This document shows positions 1 through 11,750 of a stretch of DNA of 22,644 nucleotides, one piece after another (position 1 is the stretch's first letter; each line of letters starts with the position of its first letter). The stretch lies in the IMG/VR virus record IMGVR_UViG_3300044825_000162, positions 1-22,644 of that record. One strand, given 5' to 3'. The notes beneath the pieces were generated by a model. It worked only from the letters and a program-made list of their open reading frames with translations. It made no database searches and was not told the origin of the DNA. Position numbers and translations under genes: made by a program. Source of the DNA: a virus.

Positions 1-21
1 ACAGCGTGCGAGTATGTGCGC

Positions 22-50
22 CCGATAGCCGGTCCGGTCGGTCTTGTCAA
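22..50 (-). promoter_or_regulatory. Candidate leftward sigma70-type promoter
   Basis: On the minus strand a perfect TTGACA (45-50) is followed after exactly 17 bases by TATCGG (22-27). The -35 box is ideal but the -10 box matches the consensus only in its first three bases. If real, it would drive genes to the left of the window, possibly the early region. Sequence match only. Confidence 0.3.
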
Positions 51-128
51 GTCAGACTGTTGGGGTACATCATCTGGATGTGTATTCCCAGTTCAGGTAC
101 CGGGCGTAACGCGCCACATGTGCGACAT

Positions 129-153
129 GGGGGTGGGTATGGGGGGGCACGGG
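129..153 (+). other. Canonical G-quadruplex motif
   Basis: Four G-runs of 5, 3, 7 and 3 bases are separated by loops T, TAT and CAC. This satisfies the G3+N1-7 rule with very short loops, which favours a stable parallel quadruplex. It lies in non-coding DNA on the plus strand. More G-runs follow at 205-207, 211-214, 216-218 and 235-238, but the last loop there is too long for a canonical motif. Confidence 0.6.
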
Positions 154-219
154 CGTGCGAATGTGTGTGACTCCAATAACCCGTAGCCGTGGCGTTTTGT
201 TTTTGGGTTTGGGGCGGGT

Positions 220-228
220 TGTGGATAT
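220..228 (-). promoter_or_regulatory. DnaA-box-like site (ATATCCACA)
   Basis: Read on the minus strand this is ATATCCACA, one mismatch (first base) from the DnaA box TTATCCACA. It points towards the second box at 269-277 across the 243-256 palindrome. A single 9-mer could occur by chance. The pair is what makes it notable. Confidence 0.35.
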
Positions 229-242
229 CTTATTGGGGTTTG

Positions 243-256
243 GTGACGGCCGTCAC
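243..256. repeat. Perfect 14-bp palindrome
   Basis: GTGACGGCCGTCAC is its own reverse complement, with a second palindrome GGCCGGCC three bases further on (259-266). A perfect non-coding palindrome of this length is a typical dimeric-protein operator or an origin hairpin. It sits almost midway between the two DnaA-like boxes. Confidence 0.5.
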
Positions 257-268
257 ATGGCCGGCCTG

Positions 269-277
269 TTTTCCACA
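269..277 (+). promoter_or_regulatory. DnaA-box consensus match (TTTTCCACA)
   Basis: TTTTCCACA fits the relaxed bacterial DnaA-box consensus TTWTNCACA. It lies a few bases upstream of the AT-rich stretch at 287-310, a plausible unwinding element. Sequence match only. Confidence 0.4.
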
Positions 278-309
278 GGAGTCCCAGGCTAGATATAAAA
301 TCTAATTGG

Positions 310-621
310 TTATGAACCCTTAATCCATTTTTTGGATGGAGATGCCGTTTTGCTGGGGGACCACTTAACTTTCGCCGCCCAAAAGGCAGGCGAAGATGGA
401 CCCTTGGCAATGTTCTTGGCATGACGACTTTCGAACGCTTTACGCTGTCCAACGGTCTGATTGGTCTTGACGCCTTGCTGACCGAAACGAATTGTCTTGA
501 CATTGTCGCCCCACTTGGCAACCACAATATGAGACTTGGTAGGATGATTGGGTGTACGCTTCGGCTTGTTATAGCCGGTGACACCGGCCCGTGCCAAACG
601 AGGGTCTTTCTTGGCAACCAT
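310..621 (-). CDS. Small basic phage protein (103 aa), function unknown
   Basis: The protein begins MVAKKDPRLARAGVTGYNKP and is rich in Lys and Arg. It has no membrane segment and no signal peptide. The layout (DPRLARAG..GYNKPKRTPNHP near the N-terminus, then TIRFGQQGV, then a RHAKNI..G..SPAFWAAKVKW end) resembles short conserved proteins I recall from environmental phages, all uncharacterised. The RHAKNI/FWAAKVKW end is also similar to small virus proteins with an 'xxARH...YWxxKxKW' pattern. It is the last gene of a five-gene leftward cassette, and its ATG overlaps the stop of the upstream gene by one base, so translation is probably coupled. Nucleic-acid binding is inferred only from charge. 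Confidence 0.8.
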   Translation of the reverse strand: MVAKKDPRLARAGVTGYNKPKRTPNHPTKSHIVVAKWGDNVKTIRFGQQGVKTNQTVGQRKAFESRHAKNIAKGPSSPAFWAAKVKWSPSKTASPSKKWIKGS

Positions 622-1022
622 TACTTGTTCCTTGCTCGTCGGCCCGCCGCCTTAGCGGCAGGCGTATTGGATACAAACTGTTGTCCACGCCTAGTGGCTT
701 GACGCTTCCGTTCACTAGTGGCACGATACTCGGCGACCGACAACGCCGCAATCGCCTTTTTGGGCAGATACCGTTCACCACTAGCCTTGGGTCCTTGGAC
801 GCTGGGGCGTCCGGACTTGGTACCCCATTCCTCCTTAGTCCACTTGGACAACGACCGCTGGGCAGTCGTCTTGGAACCAGTATATCCGCCACCTGCCTTC
901 TCATATTTCTGAGCCACTAGTTGGGCTTTACGAGCCGACCACTGGCCAGGCTTACCTCCCTTAGAGGACGCTTTTACTTCAGCAACAATACGCTTACGCA
1001 ACTCCGGCTTACTATAGGCCAT
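621..1022 (-). CDS. DUF5872-type basic protein (133 aa)
   Basis: Key features are the N-terminal ELRKRIVAEVKASSKGGKPG, then QWSARKAQLVAQKYEKAGGGY, a SLSKWTKEEWGTKSGRPS segment, RYLPKKAIAALS and the C-terminal QQFVSNT.AAK. This order matches the DUF5872 family, known from phages and some large eukaryotic viruses, sometimes fused to other domains. The function of the family is unknown. The protein is highly basic and appears soluble. It is fourth in the cassette, with one-base overlaps on both sides. It may help organise DNA or be packaged, but that is inference from charge and company. Confidence 0.85.
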   Translation of the reverse strand: MAYSKPELRKRIVAEVKASSKGGKPGQWSARKAQLVAQKYEKAGGGYTGSKTTAQRSLSKWTKEEWGTKSGRPSVQGPKASGERYLPKKAIAALSVAEYRATSERKRQATRRGQQFVSNTPAAKAAGRRARNK

Positions 1023-1204
1023 TACTTCTTCTTGCCAACACCAGAAATACGCTTCAGGCGTGGATTAGCCTTGATAGCGGCAGGCGACGCCTTGCGTGCC
1101 CCAGCCGCCAGAATTGCACCAGCACGCTCCATACTAATATTTTGCTTGGCCGCAATCTCTTTCTGGACTGCTTTAAAACCACGATGCTTCTTCTTAGCCG
1201 CCAT
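1022..1204 (-). CDS. Very small basic protein (60 aa), phage-typical
   Basis: The 60-residue product has about 17 Lys/Arg and only 2 Glu. Its core (F.AVQKEIAAKQNIS.ERAGAILAAGARKASPAA, then NPRLKRI) recalls uncharacterised miniproteins found in many environmental phages. It looks like one or two helices followed by a basic tail ending KKK. Its ATG overlaps the stop of the 50-aa gene by one base. The charge suggests nucleic-acid contact. No catalytic motif is visible. Confidence 0.8.
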   Translation of the reverse strand: MAAKKKHRGFKAVQKEIAAKQNISMERAGAILAAGARKASPAAIKANPRLKRISGVGKKK

Positions 1205-1356
1205 TACTTGCGGCCTTTCTTTGCCTTCGGCTTTGGACCATACTCAGCCCGCTTCTCAGCCCTAGACTCGGTACGCTCATGCCGAGCGCCCTCCATCAAC
1301 TTACCATTCGGCATACGATGATACCCCTTGGGGGTCGCCTTCTTCTTAGCGGCCAT
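1204..1356 (-). CDS. 50-aa Lys/Arg-rich miniprotein
   Basis: This gene fills the gap between its neighbours exactly. ATG at 1356-1354 overlaps the TGA of the upstream gene, and TAA at 1206-1204 overlaps the ATG of the downstream gene. The product starts MAAKKKATPKGYHRMPNGKL and ends KPKAKKGRK, with about one third Lys/Arg. The 'ATPKGYHRMPNGKLM.GA.H' segment resembles phage miniproteins I have seen but cannot assign. Reality is supported by the overlaps, the composition and the shared MAAKKK start with the next gene. It is short enough to be missed by length-filtered gene finders. Confidence 0.75.
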   Translation of the reverse strand: MAAKKKATPKGYHRMPNGKLMEGARHERTESRAEKRAEYGPKPKAKKGRK

Positions 1357-1571
1357 CACTTACCACGCCCACGACGAATAGCATCCGAAACCGACTTACG
1401 GCGCGTAACCCCAGCCCCAGGATTACCCACAACCTCTTCCTTACCATACCCAGAATGAACCCGCTTAGAATCACCCATCTTAACCTTCTTACCAGACTTG
1501 ACGCCCGCCTTCTTCGCGGCGGCCACCCCAGCCTTAGTATACGGATACTTCTTACTTCCAACAGTGGGCAT
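1356..1571 (-). CDS. Small basic protein with KKYPYTKAG motif (71 aa)
   Basis: The first gene of the leftward cassette. ATG at 1571 is chosen over longer frames because an AAAGG Shine-Dalgarno (1578-1582 on the minus strand) precedes it at suitable spacing and the product then begins MPTVGSKKYPYTKAGVAAAK, the usual start of this phage miniprotein family. The C-terminal half is Gly-, Lys- and Arg-rich, ending AIRRGRGK. Function is unknown. A role in DNA binding or condensation is inferred from charge. As the promoter-proximal gene it lies just across a divergent intergenic region from the rightward late operon. Confidence 0.8.
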   Translation of the reverse strand: MPTVGSKKYPYTKAGVAAAKKAGVKSGKKVKMGDSKRVHSGYGKEEVVGNPGAGVTRRKSVSDAIRRGRGK

Positions 1572-1689
1572 AATCATCCTTTGCTGTCCACGCAACAATA
1601 CAATACCATACACTAGATTCCAGTCACATGTCACTATCGTTCCATGTTCCTGGAAATAAAACCCCCCCTATAGTCCCCCCCATCGTTCA
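1572..1689. promoter_or_regulatory. Divergent intergenic region with C-tracts
   Basis: This 118-base gap separates the leftward cassette from the rightward block and should hold promoters for both. Visible elements are GTCACATGTCAC (a GTCAC direct repeat, 1623-1634), an inverted pair TTCCAG (1618-1623)/CTGGAA (1650-1655), and two seven-C tracts flanking TATAGT (1669-1674). TATAGT could be a plus-strand -10 box, but no good -35 box stands 16-18 bases upstream. If used, the leader before the GTG at 1690 would be only a few bases. Confidence 0.35.
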
Positions 1690-2151
1690 GTGAACGCCAG
1701 CCACTATGGTATGAAGCATGAATTAAGCGCGGACAACGCCCCCCTGCTGGATGCGCGACAAGAACAATACCTTGAGTGGCTGGTCACACCGGCATCCGAA
1801 AGGGTGCCGCGTACCCAAGCCGAACTGGCCCGTCAACTAGCGGTGGACCCCACTACCCTTAGGAGATGGGAAAAGAAAGATTGGTTTAAACGGGAATGGG
1901 ACCGACGAGTAACCGAAATCCAAGGTTCCCCCGAACGAACACAACGGCTACTGGATAGTCTGTACGCTAAGGCTATTGAAGGCGACAACAAGGCGGCACA
2001 ACTATATCTCCAGGCAACCAATCGTCTACTGCCACCCCAAACAGTAATCAACACCTCCAAAGCCTCGGACCTTAGTGACGATGAATTGGATGCCTTGATT
2101 GTTTCTATTGCGGAACACCAGTCGAAACGGAATCCTCCTAAAGCCGTCTAG
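1690..2151 (+). CDS. Terminase small subunit-like HTH protein
   Basis: The protein has an N-terminal helix-turn-helix (about residues 42-62: TQAELARQLAVDPTTLRRWE, then KKDWFKREW) followed by helices (LLDSLYAKAIEGDNKAAQLYLQ). This layout is typical of phBC6A51-type homeodomain-like proteins, commonly annotated as phage small terminase. Such proteins bind the packaging site and load the large subunit. The context agrees: it heads the late operon, although five fibre genes separate it from TerL. The GTG at 1690 gives 153 aa. An ATG at 1711 (MKHELSADNAP) is an equally plausible start because neither has a clear Shine-Dalgarno. A transcriptional regulator with the same HTH is the main alternative. 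Confidence 0.75.
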   Translation: MNASHYGMKHELSADNAPLLDARQEQYLEWLVTPASERVPRTQAELARQLAVDPTTLRRWEKKDWFKREWDRRVTEIQGSPERTQRLLDSLYAKAIEGDNKAAQLYLQATNRLLPPQTVINTSKASDLSDDELDALIVSIAEHQSKRNPPKAV

Positions 2152-3336: not shown

Positions 3337-4215
3337 ATGCCTTTGTGGGCAACACTAGCAAATTCTTCGGCTAAGGCTTTCGGTTCCACTAGCGGTGGGG
3401 CCACAAAGATTGTTGCGTCTGGTGGTACGGAAACAACAAGTGGCGCATACAAGATTCATACATTTACTTCAAGCGGAACATTTACTGTTTCAAAAGCACC
3501 AACTGGTTCAAAAGTTGATATGTTAATTGTTGCTGGTGGCGGCGGAAGTGGATGGTGGAACGAAGGAAACGCCTCTGGCGGTGGCGGTGCTGGTGGTTTT
3601 AGGCAGATAGCAGACATATCTGTATCTGAACAGGCTTATACAATTACTATTGGCGCTGGTGGCGCTGGAAATGCTAGTGGTTCCAATACTTCGGCGCTTT
3701 CATATACTAATACGGGCGGCGGCAAGGGCGGAAACTCTGGTGGATACAATGGCTCTACTGGCGGTTCTGGCGGCGGTGGCGGTGGTGACTCCAACGCCGT
3801 AGGCGGTGGCGGTACAGGAACATCTGGGCAGGGGAATGGCGGAGGGTCGGCAGGTTCCCGCGACCCATATTCTTTCGGTGGCGCTGGCGGCGGCGGAGGG
3901 GCAAGTGCCAGTGGTGGCATAGGAGGAAATGGCCAGGTTGGTGTCGGCGGCAATGGCGGCAGTGGCGGTTCTGGAAGTTCAAGTTCATATTCTGGTTCTT
4001 CGGTGACTTATGCGGGTGGCGGTGGCGGCGGGTCATCCTATTCCCAATCGGGCCCAGGCGCTGGTGGTGCTGGCGGTTCTGGTGGGGGAGGAAGAGGATA
4101 CGGCTCTGGCGGCGCGCCGACAAGTGGTACGGCCAATACAGGCGGTGGTGGAGGCGGCGGTTCTAGCGCTGGTTCTGGCGGTTCAGGAATTGTAATTATT
4201 AGGTATCTTGCATAA
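3337..4215 (+). CDS. Glycine-rich tail fibre/receptor-binding protein
   Basis: After about 60 residues (…SGAYKIHTFTSSGTFTVS) the protein enters a glycine-rich domain. It opens with VDMLIVAGGGGSG and YTITIGAGGAG, carries many GGxGG and GSGG blocks from about residue 70 to 280, and closes with SGIVIIRYLA. This is the classical phage 'glycine-rich domain', which in T-even-like adhesins and marine phages forms polyglycine-II sandwiches at the receptor-binding tip. Direct contact with the host surface is therefore likely. The DNA is locally repetitive (GGCGGTGG units), which could allow slippage variation. The stop overlaps the next ATG (TAATG). Confidence 0.8.
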   Translation: MPLWATLANSSAKAFGSTSGGATKIVASGGTETTSGAYKIHTFTSSGTFTVSKAPTGSKVDMLIVAGGGGSGWWNEGNASGGGGAGGFRQIADISVSEQAYTITIGAGGAGNASGSNTSALSYTNTGGGKGGNSGGYNGSTGGSGGGGGGDSNAVGGGGTGTSGQGNGGGSAGSRDPYSFGGAGGGGGASASGGIGGNGQVGVGGNGGSGGSGSSSSYSGSSVTYAGGGGGGSSYSQSGPGAGGAGGSGGGGRGYGSGGAPTSGTANTGGGGGGGSSAGSGGSGIVIIRYLA

Positions 4216-7033: not shown

Positions 7034-7053
7034 CGAACGGAAACCCTATTGGT

Positions 7054-7284
7054 ATGAACAATATTGCGTGCGAATCCTGCGGTCAATCTTTCGAATTCGA
7101 TGAGGAACTTCCTCGTCGTGGTGCCGTATGTTTCCGATGCCACATCCGAGGCATCAGTATTGGTTTCACCTACGGTAAGCAGGACTTTCATGGGCCGACG
7201 ATTAACGAGCGTCGGCGTCAGCAGGAACAGCAAGCCACGGATGCTGGCATCAAGGCCGAACCTGTCGGGAATCGTTGGGTGTAA
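7054..7284 (+). CDS. Zinc-ribbon protein between terL and portal (76 aa)
   Basis: Cys 6/9 and 26/29 form CxxC-x16-CxxC, a zinc-ribbon. The segment FTYGKQDFHGPTINERRRQQ follows, and the C-terminal half is charged and probably helical. Similar small proteins occur next to terminase genes in environmental phages, to my recollection, and have no established function. Location suggests a link with packaging, but that is inference. There is only a weak GGAAA ahead of the ATG. Confidence 0.75.
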   Translation: MNNIACESCGQSFEFDEELPRRGAVCFRCHIRGISIGFTYGKQDFHGPTINERRRQQEQQATDAGIKAEPVGNRWV

Positions 7285-7290
7285 TACGCT

Positions 7291-7482
7291 ATGTGGTGGG
7301 TTCCGATTGTTGTCGCTTTGATTGGTGGGCCGCTAATGTGGGGGCTAAGCAGATTCGACAAACGGAATACCATCCAGCATGCCGAAAACCAGAAGGTTCT
7401 TCTAAGGATTGAATCCAAAGTTGACCATATTGATAACCGTCTTGATGACCATATTGATTACCATTTGAAAGAGGGACTGTGA
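7291..7482 (+). CDS. Membrane miniprotein with coiled-coil tail (63 aa)
   Basis: One hydrophobic segment at the extreme N-terminus (MWWVPIVVALIGGPLMWGL) is followed by a charged heptad-like tail (IESKVDHIDNRLDDHIDYHL). This is the layout of small phage lysis-cassette accessory proteins: a single transmembrane anchor and a soluble coiled-coil. It precedes the holin-like gene and overlaps it at the GTGA junction, so a helper, antiholin or spanin-like role is plausible but unproven. No lipobox is seen. No clear Shine-Dalgarno is present. Confidence 0.7.
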   Translation: MWWVPIVVALIGGPLMWGLSRFDKRNTIQHAENQKVLLRIESKVDHIDNRLDDHIDYHLKEGL

Positions 7483-7670
7483 CTTATAAGGAAGCGTTGA
7501 AGCGTGGCATCGCCACTTTTGTGGCGGGCGCAACAGCATCCCCCATCAGTGCCGCCATACTAGACATCTCATTCTTCAAGGCCGCTGGAGCCGCTGGCGT
7601 TATCGCGGTATGGAACTGGCTGGCTCGGGTCGCCCAGGCATGGAAGGAAGATGATGGCTCGTCCCTCTAA
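7479..7670 (+). CDS. Putative r1t-like holin (63 aa)
   Basis: There are two short hydrophobic stretches (GIATFVAGATASPISAAIL, about residues 10-28, and AAGAAGVIAVWNWLARVA, about 36-53), a short charged N-terminus and a charged C-terminal tail (AWKEDDGSSL). The '(I/L)SFFKAAGAAGVIAVWNWL' part resembles the second helix of r1t-type holins common in phages of Gram-positive bacteria, which form holes in the membrane to release endolysin. The GTG start is preceded by GAGGG and overlaps the upstream stop. The 3' end overlaps the portal gene start. No endolysin is in the window, so the holin call rests on topology. Confidence 0.6.
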   Translation: MTYKEALKRGIATFVAGATASPISAAILDISFFKAAGAAGVIAVWNWLARVAQAWKEDDGSSL

Positions 7671-9453
7671 CTCGGACTATTTGGCGCGATATCGCAAGAA
7701 GATTAACGCCACCAAAAAGTGGCGCAAAGAAGAATCTTTCGATGACACATGGCGTCGTCTTATTGACCTATATAAGGGTCGGCATTACGAATATTTCACC
7801 AACGAGGACCGCATCTTGGTGAACATGGCATTCTCCACTATTAATGTTATTTATCCTTCTATTTCGGTGAACTACCCGAAAATTACGGTTAATGCTATTA
7901 ATCCCGAGAATGCCGCTAATGCTACTATTGCTGAAGCCGTAGTTAACTATTGGTGGCGTAACCGCAACATTAAAGACCAGTTCCGTACAGCCGTCAAAGA
8001 CTTCCTGATTGTCGGCCACGGCTGGTTGAAGGTCGGCTACAGGTATGTTGAAGAAGAACGCATCGGCCAAGACGAAGATGTGTCCGACCCGAATGTTCCC
8101 GAAAATGTAGCATCCACAACCTACAATGTTCTTGAGGATGCCCCGTTCGTTGAACGGGTATCCCCATTCGATGTGTTCGTTGACCCGGACGCAACCAGCA
8201 TGGACAACATCAAATGGATTGCTCACCGTGTACGCCGCCCAATCCGCGACATCAAGACCGACAAGCGCTACAACCGCTCTGTCCGCGAAGATATTGCCCC
8301 CGTCAGTTTCTCCCGTTACACATCGGATGAGCCTGCCCACCGTAAAGTCCACGACAAAGAAGAGGGCTATGCGGATGTGTATGAGTTTTACGATTTGCGG
8401 AACCAGACCGTCAGCGTGTTCGCAGAATCTGCTGACGGATTCCTAATTAAGCCAACCAGAATGCCGTATGCTTTCGGCCATCCGTTTGTGATGATTCGAA
8501 ACTATGATGTGCCGGACAACTTCTATCCGATTGGTGACCTTGAGGCTATTGAGCCGCTACAGCGTGAACTGAATGCTACTCGTACCCAGATGATGAACCA
8601 TCGTAAGCGGTATGCCCGTAAGTATTTGTTCCGTGAGTCGGCTCTTGATTCTAATGGTCGTGCGGCCATGGAGTCAGATGAGGATAATGTGATGGTGCCC
8701 GTGACGGGCGACACACCCCTTGGGGATGTTGTCGCACCGTTCCCCGCATTGATTAACCCACCCGAATTCTACAACCAGTCCAACCAAATCGAACAGGACA
8801 TCAACCTGATTTCAGGTGTATCGGAATTCATGCGTGGGTCCATGTCCGAAATCCGTCGCACCGCGACAGAAGTCGGACTTGTCCAAGATGCCGCCAATGC
8901 GCGTACAGCCGACAAACTTGCCACCATTGAGAACGCTATTGGGCAAGTTGGTCGCCGTCTATTGAAACTGACTCAGCAGTTCTTGACGGGCGAAGCAGTC
9001 GCGCGCATTATGGGACGGGATGGCGAACCGATTTGGATTCGCTACGACCGTGACTATATTGCTGGAGATTTCGATTTTGATGTGGTGGGTGGCTCTACCC
9101 GCCCCCACAACGAATCATTCCAGCGTGCCCAAACAGCCGAAATGATTCAGGCCCTGGCACCGTTTGCTGGTGCTGGGGTAATTGATATGACCAAGTTTGC
9201 GGCCTATGTGCTTCAGGTTGGTTTTGGTATCAAGAACCCTGAAGCCTTTGTTGTTAGCCCCGAACCGCCTGCACCTGAGCAGATGCCTGGCGGTGGGGCA
9301 CCGCAGATGATTGGTCCGCCCGGCCAGCCCATGCCTCCTGAGGCTGGTGCGGGCGGCCTTGATGTAGCCAGTTTACCTCCTGAAATTCTTCAGGCTTTGC
9401 TGGCACAGGGTGGCGGTCCTGCCCCGCAGGAGATGCCACCACCTGGTCTTTAG
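7654..9453 (+). CDS. Portal protein
   Basis: About 599 aa, the size of phage portals. The N-terminal region has WRRLIDLYKGRHYEYFTNEDRI..N.AFSTINVIYPSI, followed by FLIVGHGWLKVGY and DPDATSMDNIKWI. A long acidic and aromatic core (residues about 230-480) includes FYPIGDLEAIEPLQRELNATRTQMMNHRKRY and MRGSMSEIRRTATEVG, typical of the portal stem and clip. The last 60 residues are Pro/Gly/Met-rich and probably flexible. Twelve copies would form the DNA gate at one capsid vertex, contacting TerL, scaffold and adaptor. Two ATGs are adjacent (7651 and 7654). The AAGGA at 7644-7648 is better spaced for the second. Confidence 0.9.
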   Translation: MARPSNSDYLARYRKKINATKKWRKEESFDDTWRRLIDLYKGRHYEYFTNEDRILVNMAFSTINVIYPSISVNYPKITVNAINPENAANATIAEAVVNYWWRNRNIKDQFRTAVKDFLIVGHGWLKVGYRYVEEERIGQDEDVSDPNVPENVASTTYNVLEDAPFVERVSPFDVFVDPDATSMDNIKWIAHRVRRPIRDIKTDKRYNRSVREDIAPVSFSRYTSDEPAHRKVHDKEEGYADVYEFYDLRNQTVSVFAESADGFLIKPTRMPYAFGHPFVMIRNYDVPDNFYPIGDLEAIEPLQRELNATRTQMMNHRKRYARKYLFRESALDSNGRAAMESDEDNVMVPVTGDTPLGDVVAPFPALINPPEFYNQSNQIEQDINLISGVSEFMRGSMSEIRRTATEVGLVQDAANARTADKLATIENAIGQVGRRLLKLTQQFLTGEAVARIMGRDGEPIWIRYDRDYIAGDFDFDVVGGSTRPHNESFQRAQTAEMIQALAPFAGAGVIDMTKFAAYVLQVGFGIKNPEAFVVSPEPPAPEQMPGGGAPQMIGPPGQPMPPEAGAGGLDVASLPPEILQALLAQGGGPAPQEMPPPGL

Positions 9454-11384: not shown

Positions 11385-11750
11385 ATGCCCGCCAAGAAGC
11401 AACCTACCGCGATGGATAGCACTACCCGCCAGGCGGTAGCCAAGCGTACCGGGATGAAGAAGTTGGGTGATTTCTACGCTGGCAAGGGTGCTGGGTCGGC
11501 TGACACTCAGGCCGCTCGTGGGGCATCACGCCGTGCGGCTACCTATAAGATGGCGGCCAGCGAAGGCTCCAAGCGTAAGTCACCTGCCAAGAAGTCTGAT
11601 ACTGGATTCGGTGTTTACGATTCGCTTCGTTTGCCTGGTGCCAAGAAGTCGGCATCTGGTGTTATCCGCGCCGCGGCTAAAGTCAATTTTAATTCTCGTC
11701 CGGCCAAGAGCAAGTCTGGTGGTTACGGCATGGGAGCGAAAAAGAAGTAA
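11385..11750 (+). CDS. Basic, histone-tail-like protein (121 aa)
   Basis: A Lys/Ala/Ser/Gly-rich polypeptide without membrane segments, beginning MPAKKQPTAMDSTTRQAVAK. The SPAKK motif (about residues 66-70) resembles the minor-groove-binding SPKK motif of histone H1 tails, and the end GGYGMGAKKK is like the tails of the leftward basic cassette. Composition suggests nucleic-acid binding or packaging with DNA. I know of similar uncharacterised genes next to capsid genes in environmental phages. It has a good AAGGAG five bases before the ATG and is the first gene after the capsid terminator. A minor capsid or decoration role is the alternative. Confidence 0.75.
   Translation: MPAKKQPTAMDSTTRQAVAKRTGMKKLGDFYAGKGAGSADTQAARGASRRAATYKMAASEGSKRKSPAKKSDTGFGVYDSLRLPGAKKSASGVIRAAAKVNFNSRPAKSKSGGYGMGAKKK

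Follow-up and report, generated by a model that had tools for sequence, protein, structure and literature searches.

Five overlapping genes for small basic proteins in a tailed phage, and their possible connection with head assembly and DNA packaging

The cassette and its surroundings

The window, which is the whole stretch of DNA analysed here, is one complete IMG/VR contig of 22,644 bases with its right end cut within an ORF. The source is a tailed phage. Its late module runs rightward, and comprises the terminase small subunit, structural genes, TerL, portal, an acidic scaffold-like protein (pI 4.5), the capsid protein and a giant ORF truncated by the end of the contig. No known phage matched the left 12 kb of the window by megablast. 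Five leftward genes (g1 to g5, Table 1) diverge from the late module. Their coordinates and lengths agree with the original prediction, and each neighbouring pair has exactly one base in common, within TGATG or TAATG. The proteins are all rich in Lys and Arg as had been claimed, with pI values from 10.7 to 11.9 and K+R far above D+E (19/4, 17/5, 17/2, 32/8 and 23/3 from g1 to g5). Under shuffling of the gene order of the window, five successive genes all with pI >10.5 have P ~0.005; the value is conservative, because three small genes at 7056-7671 were taken in a wrong frame, giving one false basic gene.

Homologues exist for each of g1 to g5, and dN/dS lies in the range 0.07-0.29 across the five in comparisons with unsaturated dS, corresponding to purifying selection (0.29 for g1 against locus L008, 0.26 for g2 against L005 and 0.21 for g3 against L068). 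On these two grounds they are real, selected genes. The window has three further one-base overlaps, at 4215, 11750 and 14320, and they are the general style of this phage. They therefore indicate an operon; the fixed ratio of translation that had been proposed does not follow from coupling.

Table 1. Location of the cassette genes and flanking features in the window
Feature	Position	Strand	Description
g1	1356..1571	-	71 aa, pI 10.8; N-terminal motif MPTVGxKKYPYTKAG; phrog_33179 (E 6.6e-7)
g2	1204..1356	-	50 aa, pI 10.7; two short motifs, GYHxMPxGxxM and HExxES..ER..EY
g3	1022..1204	-	60 aa, pI 11.9; GFKAVQKxIAxKQxxxMERAGAILAAGARKAS family
g4	621..1022	-	133 aa, pI 11.1; DUF5872-like; two halves, phrog_17747 and phrog_14910
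g5	310..621	-	103 aa, pI 11.5; phrog_7595 domain
Terminase small subunit	1690..2151	+	First gene of rightward late operon; phrog_2538 (E 2.4e-9)
Divergent intergenic region, cassette versus terminase small subunit	1572..1689		Holds a T7-promoter-like core on the minus strand (suggestive)
Non-coding stretch 3' of g5	1..309		Two DnaA-like boxes, one mismatch each

On the minus strand the sequence GGGGGACTATAGGGGGG (window 1661-1690) bears a suggestive resemblance to a T7-type promoter core directed into the cassette; ~26 bp around it are kept in the sister phages L002 and L003 (96% over 26 bp in L003). The region beyond g5 had been described as origin-like, for which there is little basis: the two DnaA-like boxes (~0.2 expected at the rate of the window), and conservation of the non-coding DNA in one sister, L008 (73% identity, 291 bp).

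Immediately past the major capsid protein, at 11385-11750, there is a gene for one more very basic protein, the sixth (121 aa, pI 10.9, with Lys-rich ends). It has no confident family match, and could likewise be associated with DNA or the head. The 617-bp interval at 7034-7650, between TerL and portal, apparently contains three small genes, one zinc-ribbon-like with CxxC and two membrane or holin-like. A match to Phage_tail_tube_init in the window was not taken as membership, scoring 20.5 bits against a cut-off of 27.

Protein families and modular construction

The phrog assignments of g1 and g5 are given in Table 1. For g2 and g3 the profile libraries gave no confident match, and an NCBIfam search returned nothing. 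The two halves of g4 match phrog_17747 (residues 3-47, E 9.2e-20) and phrog_14910 (residues 52-119, E 3.3e-21), and its AlphaFold model has a mean pLDDT of 89.9 and a pTM of 0.60. A DUF5872-type domain had been assigned to the cassette. The window g4 aligns over the core of this family (PF19197) at 24.1 bits, below the gathering cut-off of 27.5; the scores of its sisters are 32.9 (G001) and 30.8 (G003), and a sister protein above the cut-off is 78% identical to g4. The protein is thus best termed DUF5872-like, and the family has itself no assigned function. A giant alga virus has both a DUF5872 gene and a DUF5754 gene (PMC12085832). Against DUF6321 (PF19846) the best relatives reach 13.9-16.1 bits with a cut-off of 28.5, and the window gives zero match.

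The g4 family extends into bacterial chromosomes. A genome scan found g4 homologues in 77 contigs, most of them full-length and nearly all alphaproteobacterial, including Methylobacterium, Sphingomonas, Roseomonas and Aureimonas. The homologue is present in 8/60 genomes of one family, and in single copy per genome (10/10). At eight GC-rich bacterial loci, where genes were read by eye with GC3 weighting as automatic calls gave spurious long ORFs, the neighbours are mostly of housekeeping type (UvrD-like helicase, PhaR-like, proline-tRNA-ligase-like). There are no obvious phage genes beside the g4 homologue at these eight loci, except possibly a terminase-small-subunit-like neighbour near L261. 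The g5 profile, which detects 6/6 viral controls, found no g5 in the bacterial genomes carrying a g4 homologue.

Several of the cellular proteins carry additional domains. The homologue L327:7983-8732 contains Rho_N at 49.7 bits (cut-off 24.9), with weaker Rho_N in L272 (7980-8468), L283 and L280; the Rho_N repeats of L327 and L272 are C-terminal. L309:7980-8699 contains DUF3140, and L264:7977-8603 has an Ala/Pro/Lys tail like that of histone H1. Rho_N is a SAP-like nucleic-acid-binding domain. From these fusions the g4 family is probably associated with nucleic acid; the window g4 itself has no Rho_N partner. The chromosomal DUF5872-like genes of Alphaproteobacteria with Rho_N, DUF3140 or an H1-like tail possibly constitute a bacterial nucleic-acid-binding family.

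Residues 3-87 of g5 align with 3-96 of the 96 positions of phrog_7595 (E 2.9e-30), a profile matched by 19/19 members of A2. The AlphaFold model (mean pLDDT 81.1, pTM 0.68) is a hairpin with helices. A likeness to KOW/ribosomal L24 in PDB sequences (E 0.02) was rejected, given the predicted hairpin and helices and an empty PDB fold search. Foldseek against viral models places the g5 domain within larger proteins, including XkdF, a ChaB protein and ICP1 ORF125. In the sequence of the last, Peptidase_S78_2 occupies residues 36-160 and the g5 domain 188-267 (i-E 7e-12). ORF125 (YP_004251067.1) is Gp125, the predicted procapsid protease (PMC9040626, PMC7567579), and is three genes away from the coat protein Gp122 (YP_004251064.1). 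A scan with divergent g5 members gave 80 IMG/VR loci containing four ORFs >200 aa, and all four have the arrangement ChaB-(Hva1_TUDOR)-g5 domain-S78_2 (L221:2446-3726, L227:3548-4933, L236:166-1008 and L237:3545-4630). The domain is therefore N-terminal to the protease in the four IMG/VR proteins and C-terminal in Gp125. The XkdF-type (Peptidase_S78_2) prohead proteases, both ICP1 Gp125 and ChaB-XkdF, thus share a domain with the cassette, but differ in that the window g5 is free-standing, without a protease. None of the cassette loci searched had an S78_2 protease together with a stand-alone g5, and the idea that free g5 partners with XkdF was dropped. In Melnitz phage (L175:3306-5258) a cytidylyltransferase-like protein is fused to DUF5824 and a terminal g5 domain, so the domain is mobile and not exclusively a head module.

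Members of the g5 superfamily also reach Tlr6F/DUF5754 (PF19058), L230 at 27.7 bits (cut-off 27.4) and L250 at 23.2-23.7. The window g5 has zero match to PF19058, and since the link is made by these intermediates it is a remote one. Tlr6F proteins are small, uncharacterised and conserved in polinton-like viruses, virophages, giant viruses and some phages (PMC4642659, PMC12220804). The literature found makes no connection between Tlr6F and either XkdF or a cassette of basic genes.

The cassette behaves like a kit of basic modules that are shuffled, split and fused, judged from the sequences of its relatives. The g4 protein is encoded by a single gene, or by adjacent genes for the N- and C-terminal halves in environmental loci (L089, L090, L093, L107 and others) and in the cultured phages CRP-13, MEP402 and Lederberg; in HMO-2011 the halves are apart. 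The two g2 motifs, denoted M (MPxG) and H (HExxES), are arranged M-H in the window and L004, H-M in L002 and L006, and H alone in L027, L078 and L108, while in L054 and L068 the g2 motif is joined to that of g1. The g2 slot of sisters L002 (3883-4170) and L003 (7728-7940) contains a DUF6496 domain (44-46 bits) fused to the MPxG motif, to which the L002 protein adds HExxES.

Association and genomic position across lineages

Scans of IMG/VR found 306 relatives of g4 and at least 594 of g5. Co-occurrence was analysed in 160 IMG/VR loci with profiles built from these loci, counting anchors with at least 2 kb on each side and partners within 2 kb. Around g4 (n = 44) the partner was g5 in 37/44, g1 in 25/44, g2 in 7/44 and g3 in 7/44; on dereplication at 90% identity g5 was within 2 kb in 11/14. 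Around g5 (n = 42) g4 was found in 17/42. The partner was always on the strand of the anchor (66/66, 34/34, 19/19 and 12/12; 49/49, 13/13, 6/6 and 1/1). Homologues of g1 are present in 50 loci. Comparison of loci by profile shows that g3 is absent from the nearest sister phages; a g3 relative used as query matched a Bradyrhizobium phage, just 5' of the terminase, and a jumbo Agrobacterium phage. Searches with tblastn of the window g1 and g3 against phages gave zero matches, probably a result of low-complexity masking. Gene order varies among loci (g4-g5, g5-g4, g5-g1-g4 and more). The clustering is strong but the order is variable, so that this is a recurrent set and not a fixed operon. Of the original proposal a recurrent set is supported, by the co-occurrence of the families and the 100% agreement of strand, but a conserved order of the five is not, the modules being shuffled. 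Of the two departures that were to count against the proposal, failure to co-occur and failure to keep order, the second alone is seen. No description of the set as a unit was found in a literature search that mostly covered papers outside subscription.

The arrangement of the window, with the cassette diverging from TerS/TerL, recurs in the close relatives (L002-L015, L155). Past the cassette these have a non-coding stretch and, ~6-8 kb on, replication genes on the same strand. In the other lineages sampled it is within the late operon, co-directional with TerL (18/18), portal (21/21), MCP (9/9) and lysis genes (13/13, these being the loci with a recognised lysis gene, mostly adjoining the cassette). 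Its median position there is 121 bp past the lysis gene and 1.3 kb ahead of TerL. Orientation opposite to the late operon, put forward earlier as a feature of the cassette, is therefore a trait of the window lineage. Cultured phages show the same. In SIO1, Celeribacter phage P12053L and Lentibacter phage ICBM2 the cassette forms the terminal genes of the late operon. It lies between endolysin and TerL in CRP-13, immediately ahead of TerL in MEP402, and adjoins lysozyme in Synechococcus phage S-CRES1. In KBS-S-2A g5 is immediately ahead of the head scaffold (phrog_206) and two genes ahead of MCP. In one sister phage a tRNA-Asn(GTT) is located immediately past the cassette (L006:1460-1534).

Possible functions of the cassette

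Nucleic acid is suggested by the charge of the proteins and by the Rho_N partners of g4 relatives, and head assembly by the late position and the fusions to prohead proteases. Taken together, these are most simply read as basic proteins that would bind DNA while it is packaged or afterwards. We tentatively favour the view that the cassette encodes late-made basic nucleic-acid-binding proteins connected with assembly of the head and packaging of DNA, resembling the T4 internal proteins in their action; this seems to us quite possible, if rather short of probable. The five small Lys/Arg-rich proteins would be made together, in most phages alongside the late genes, and would bind viral DNA and/or the interior of the forming head. 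They would neutralise charge, and might remain with the packaged genome. We infer DNA binding by the phage proteins, a procapsid or virion location and cooperation of the five from the genomic comparisons. A literature search found no proteomics or binding data on any cassette member, and small proteins in the proteome table of the giant virus AaV are given only as 'hypothetical', with none that can be mapped to the cassette families.

The internal head proteins of T4 are small, basic, packaged and injected, and are variable and modular among T4 relatives. Of IPI, IPII and IPIII, the genes ipIII and ipII are immediately past lysozyme e, and in other lineages the cassette is likewise mostly beside a lysis gene; unlike them the cassette of the window lineage is not. 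The T4 proteins are also less basic (pI 8.9-9.5 compared with 10.7-11.9), and have an N-terminal MKTxxEF start that the cassette proteins do not. A second likeness is to the basic virion proteins A278L, A282L and MC1-like A437L of PBCV-1, proposed to neutralise the packaged viral DNA (PMC3281028). These differ in belonging to a eukaryotic virus and in being mostly larger and kinase-bearing, and are likened by description with no claim of homology. According to the same chlorella virus paper, evidence for a large contribution of basic proteins to the neutralisation of phage DNA is lacking (PMC3281028), which we count against a packaging function. We also count against it the single-copy chromosomal g4 homologues of bacteria, the opposite orientation of the window-lineage cassette, on the strand of the replication module, the presence of the g5 domain on the Melnitz cytidylyltransferase protein, the separation of stand-alone g5 from S78_2 proteases, and the lack of sequence relation to the T4 internal proteins (phmmer and profile searches insignificant, best 8.3 bits).

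The location of the window-lineage cassette on the strand of the replication module, together with the high positive charge of all five proteins, could instead indicate nucleoid-type proteins that remain in the cell unpackaged, where they coat or organise replicating viral DNA or displace nucleoid proteins of the host. This was the original prediction, and we consider it unlikely, though deserving of some weight. In Alphaproteobacteria the g4 relatives that carry Rho_N/SAP-like domains or H1-like tails are single-copy chromosomal genes, and g4 need not therefore be part of a virion. The proposed DNA-condensing set is in this way partly supported, charge and Rho_N fusions making nucleic-acid association probable. 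However, in other lineages the cassette is part of the late operon, with lysis and terminase genes as its neighbours, and the g5 domain is part of prohead proteases. HU, H-NS and other nucleoid folds were undetected, although this is a weak test; a PDB sequence search gave no significant matches and VIA-align a best Z of 2.1 for g4 and no match for g5, which excludes nothing. The prohead-protease (XkdF) fusions might alternatively mean that g5, and perhaps g4, are partners in capsid assembly and not DNA binders, binding scaffold, coat or portal within the procapsid, with their charge meeting that of the acidic scaffold. The scaffold-like protein of the window is indeed acidic and g5 adjoins the scaffold in KBS-S-2A, but such a role leaves the Rho_N fusions of g4 relatives and five separate basic proteins unexplained. 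The g5 domain is also found on the cytidylyltransferase protein, and its remote relatives are reported in giant and polinton-like viruses, the capsids of which are unrelated (PMC4642659). We regard this as quite unlikely.

Small, variable and shuffled gene sets typify take-over and anti-defence loci, and the modules here are shuffled. The proteins might thus bind host RNA polymerase, ribosomes or nucleic acids, or block defence, possibly after injection. Yet the cores of g4 and g5 are extremely conserved across many lineages, and the cassette has a late location whereas host-target factors are usually divergent and early, so we think such a function improbable. The variable membership of the cluster, the absence of g3 from the nearest relatives and the split and fused versions would also be expected if unrelated small genes with no shared role had gathered at a permissive site in the late operon. 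This we find highly improbable, as the same families cluster repeatedly on the same strand in otherwise different phages, and all have an extreme charge and are under purifying selection.

In tailed phages the charge of the packaged DNA is usually held to be neutralised by ions and polyamines, with hardly any part for proteins. If instead the cassette proteins function in packaging as we prefer, protein-assisted condensation would be widespread among tailed phages. Aquatic phages very commonly carry members of the g4 and g5 families, and there are related families in giant and polinton-like viruses. The late-operon position and the fusions to prohead proteases and Rho_N turn an 'unknown DUF' into a testable proposal. 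A broader and more speculative form, unlikely as it stands, is that phages carry a modular, horizontally shuffled, protamine-like kit of mini-proteins that bind the genome during packaging, partly common to giant viruses and bacterial chromosomes. Such a kit would run counter to the view based on ions and polyamines, and the ubiquitous orphan family Tlr6F would acquire a function. Its modules would be PYT, MPxG, HExxES, DUF6496, g3, DUF5872-N, DUF5872-C and Tlr6F-like.
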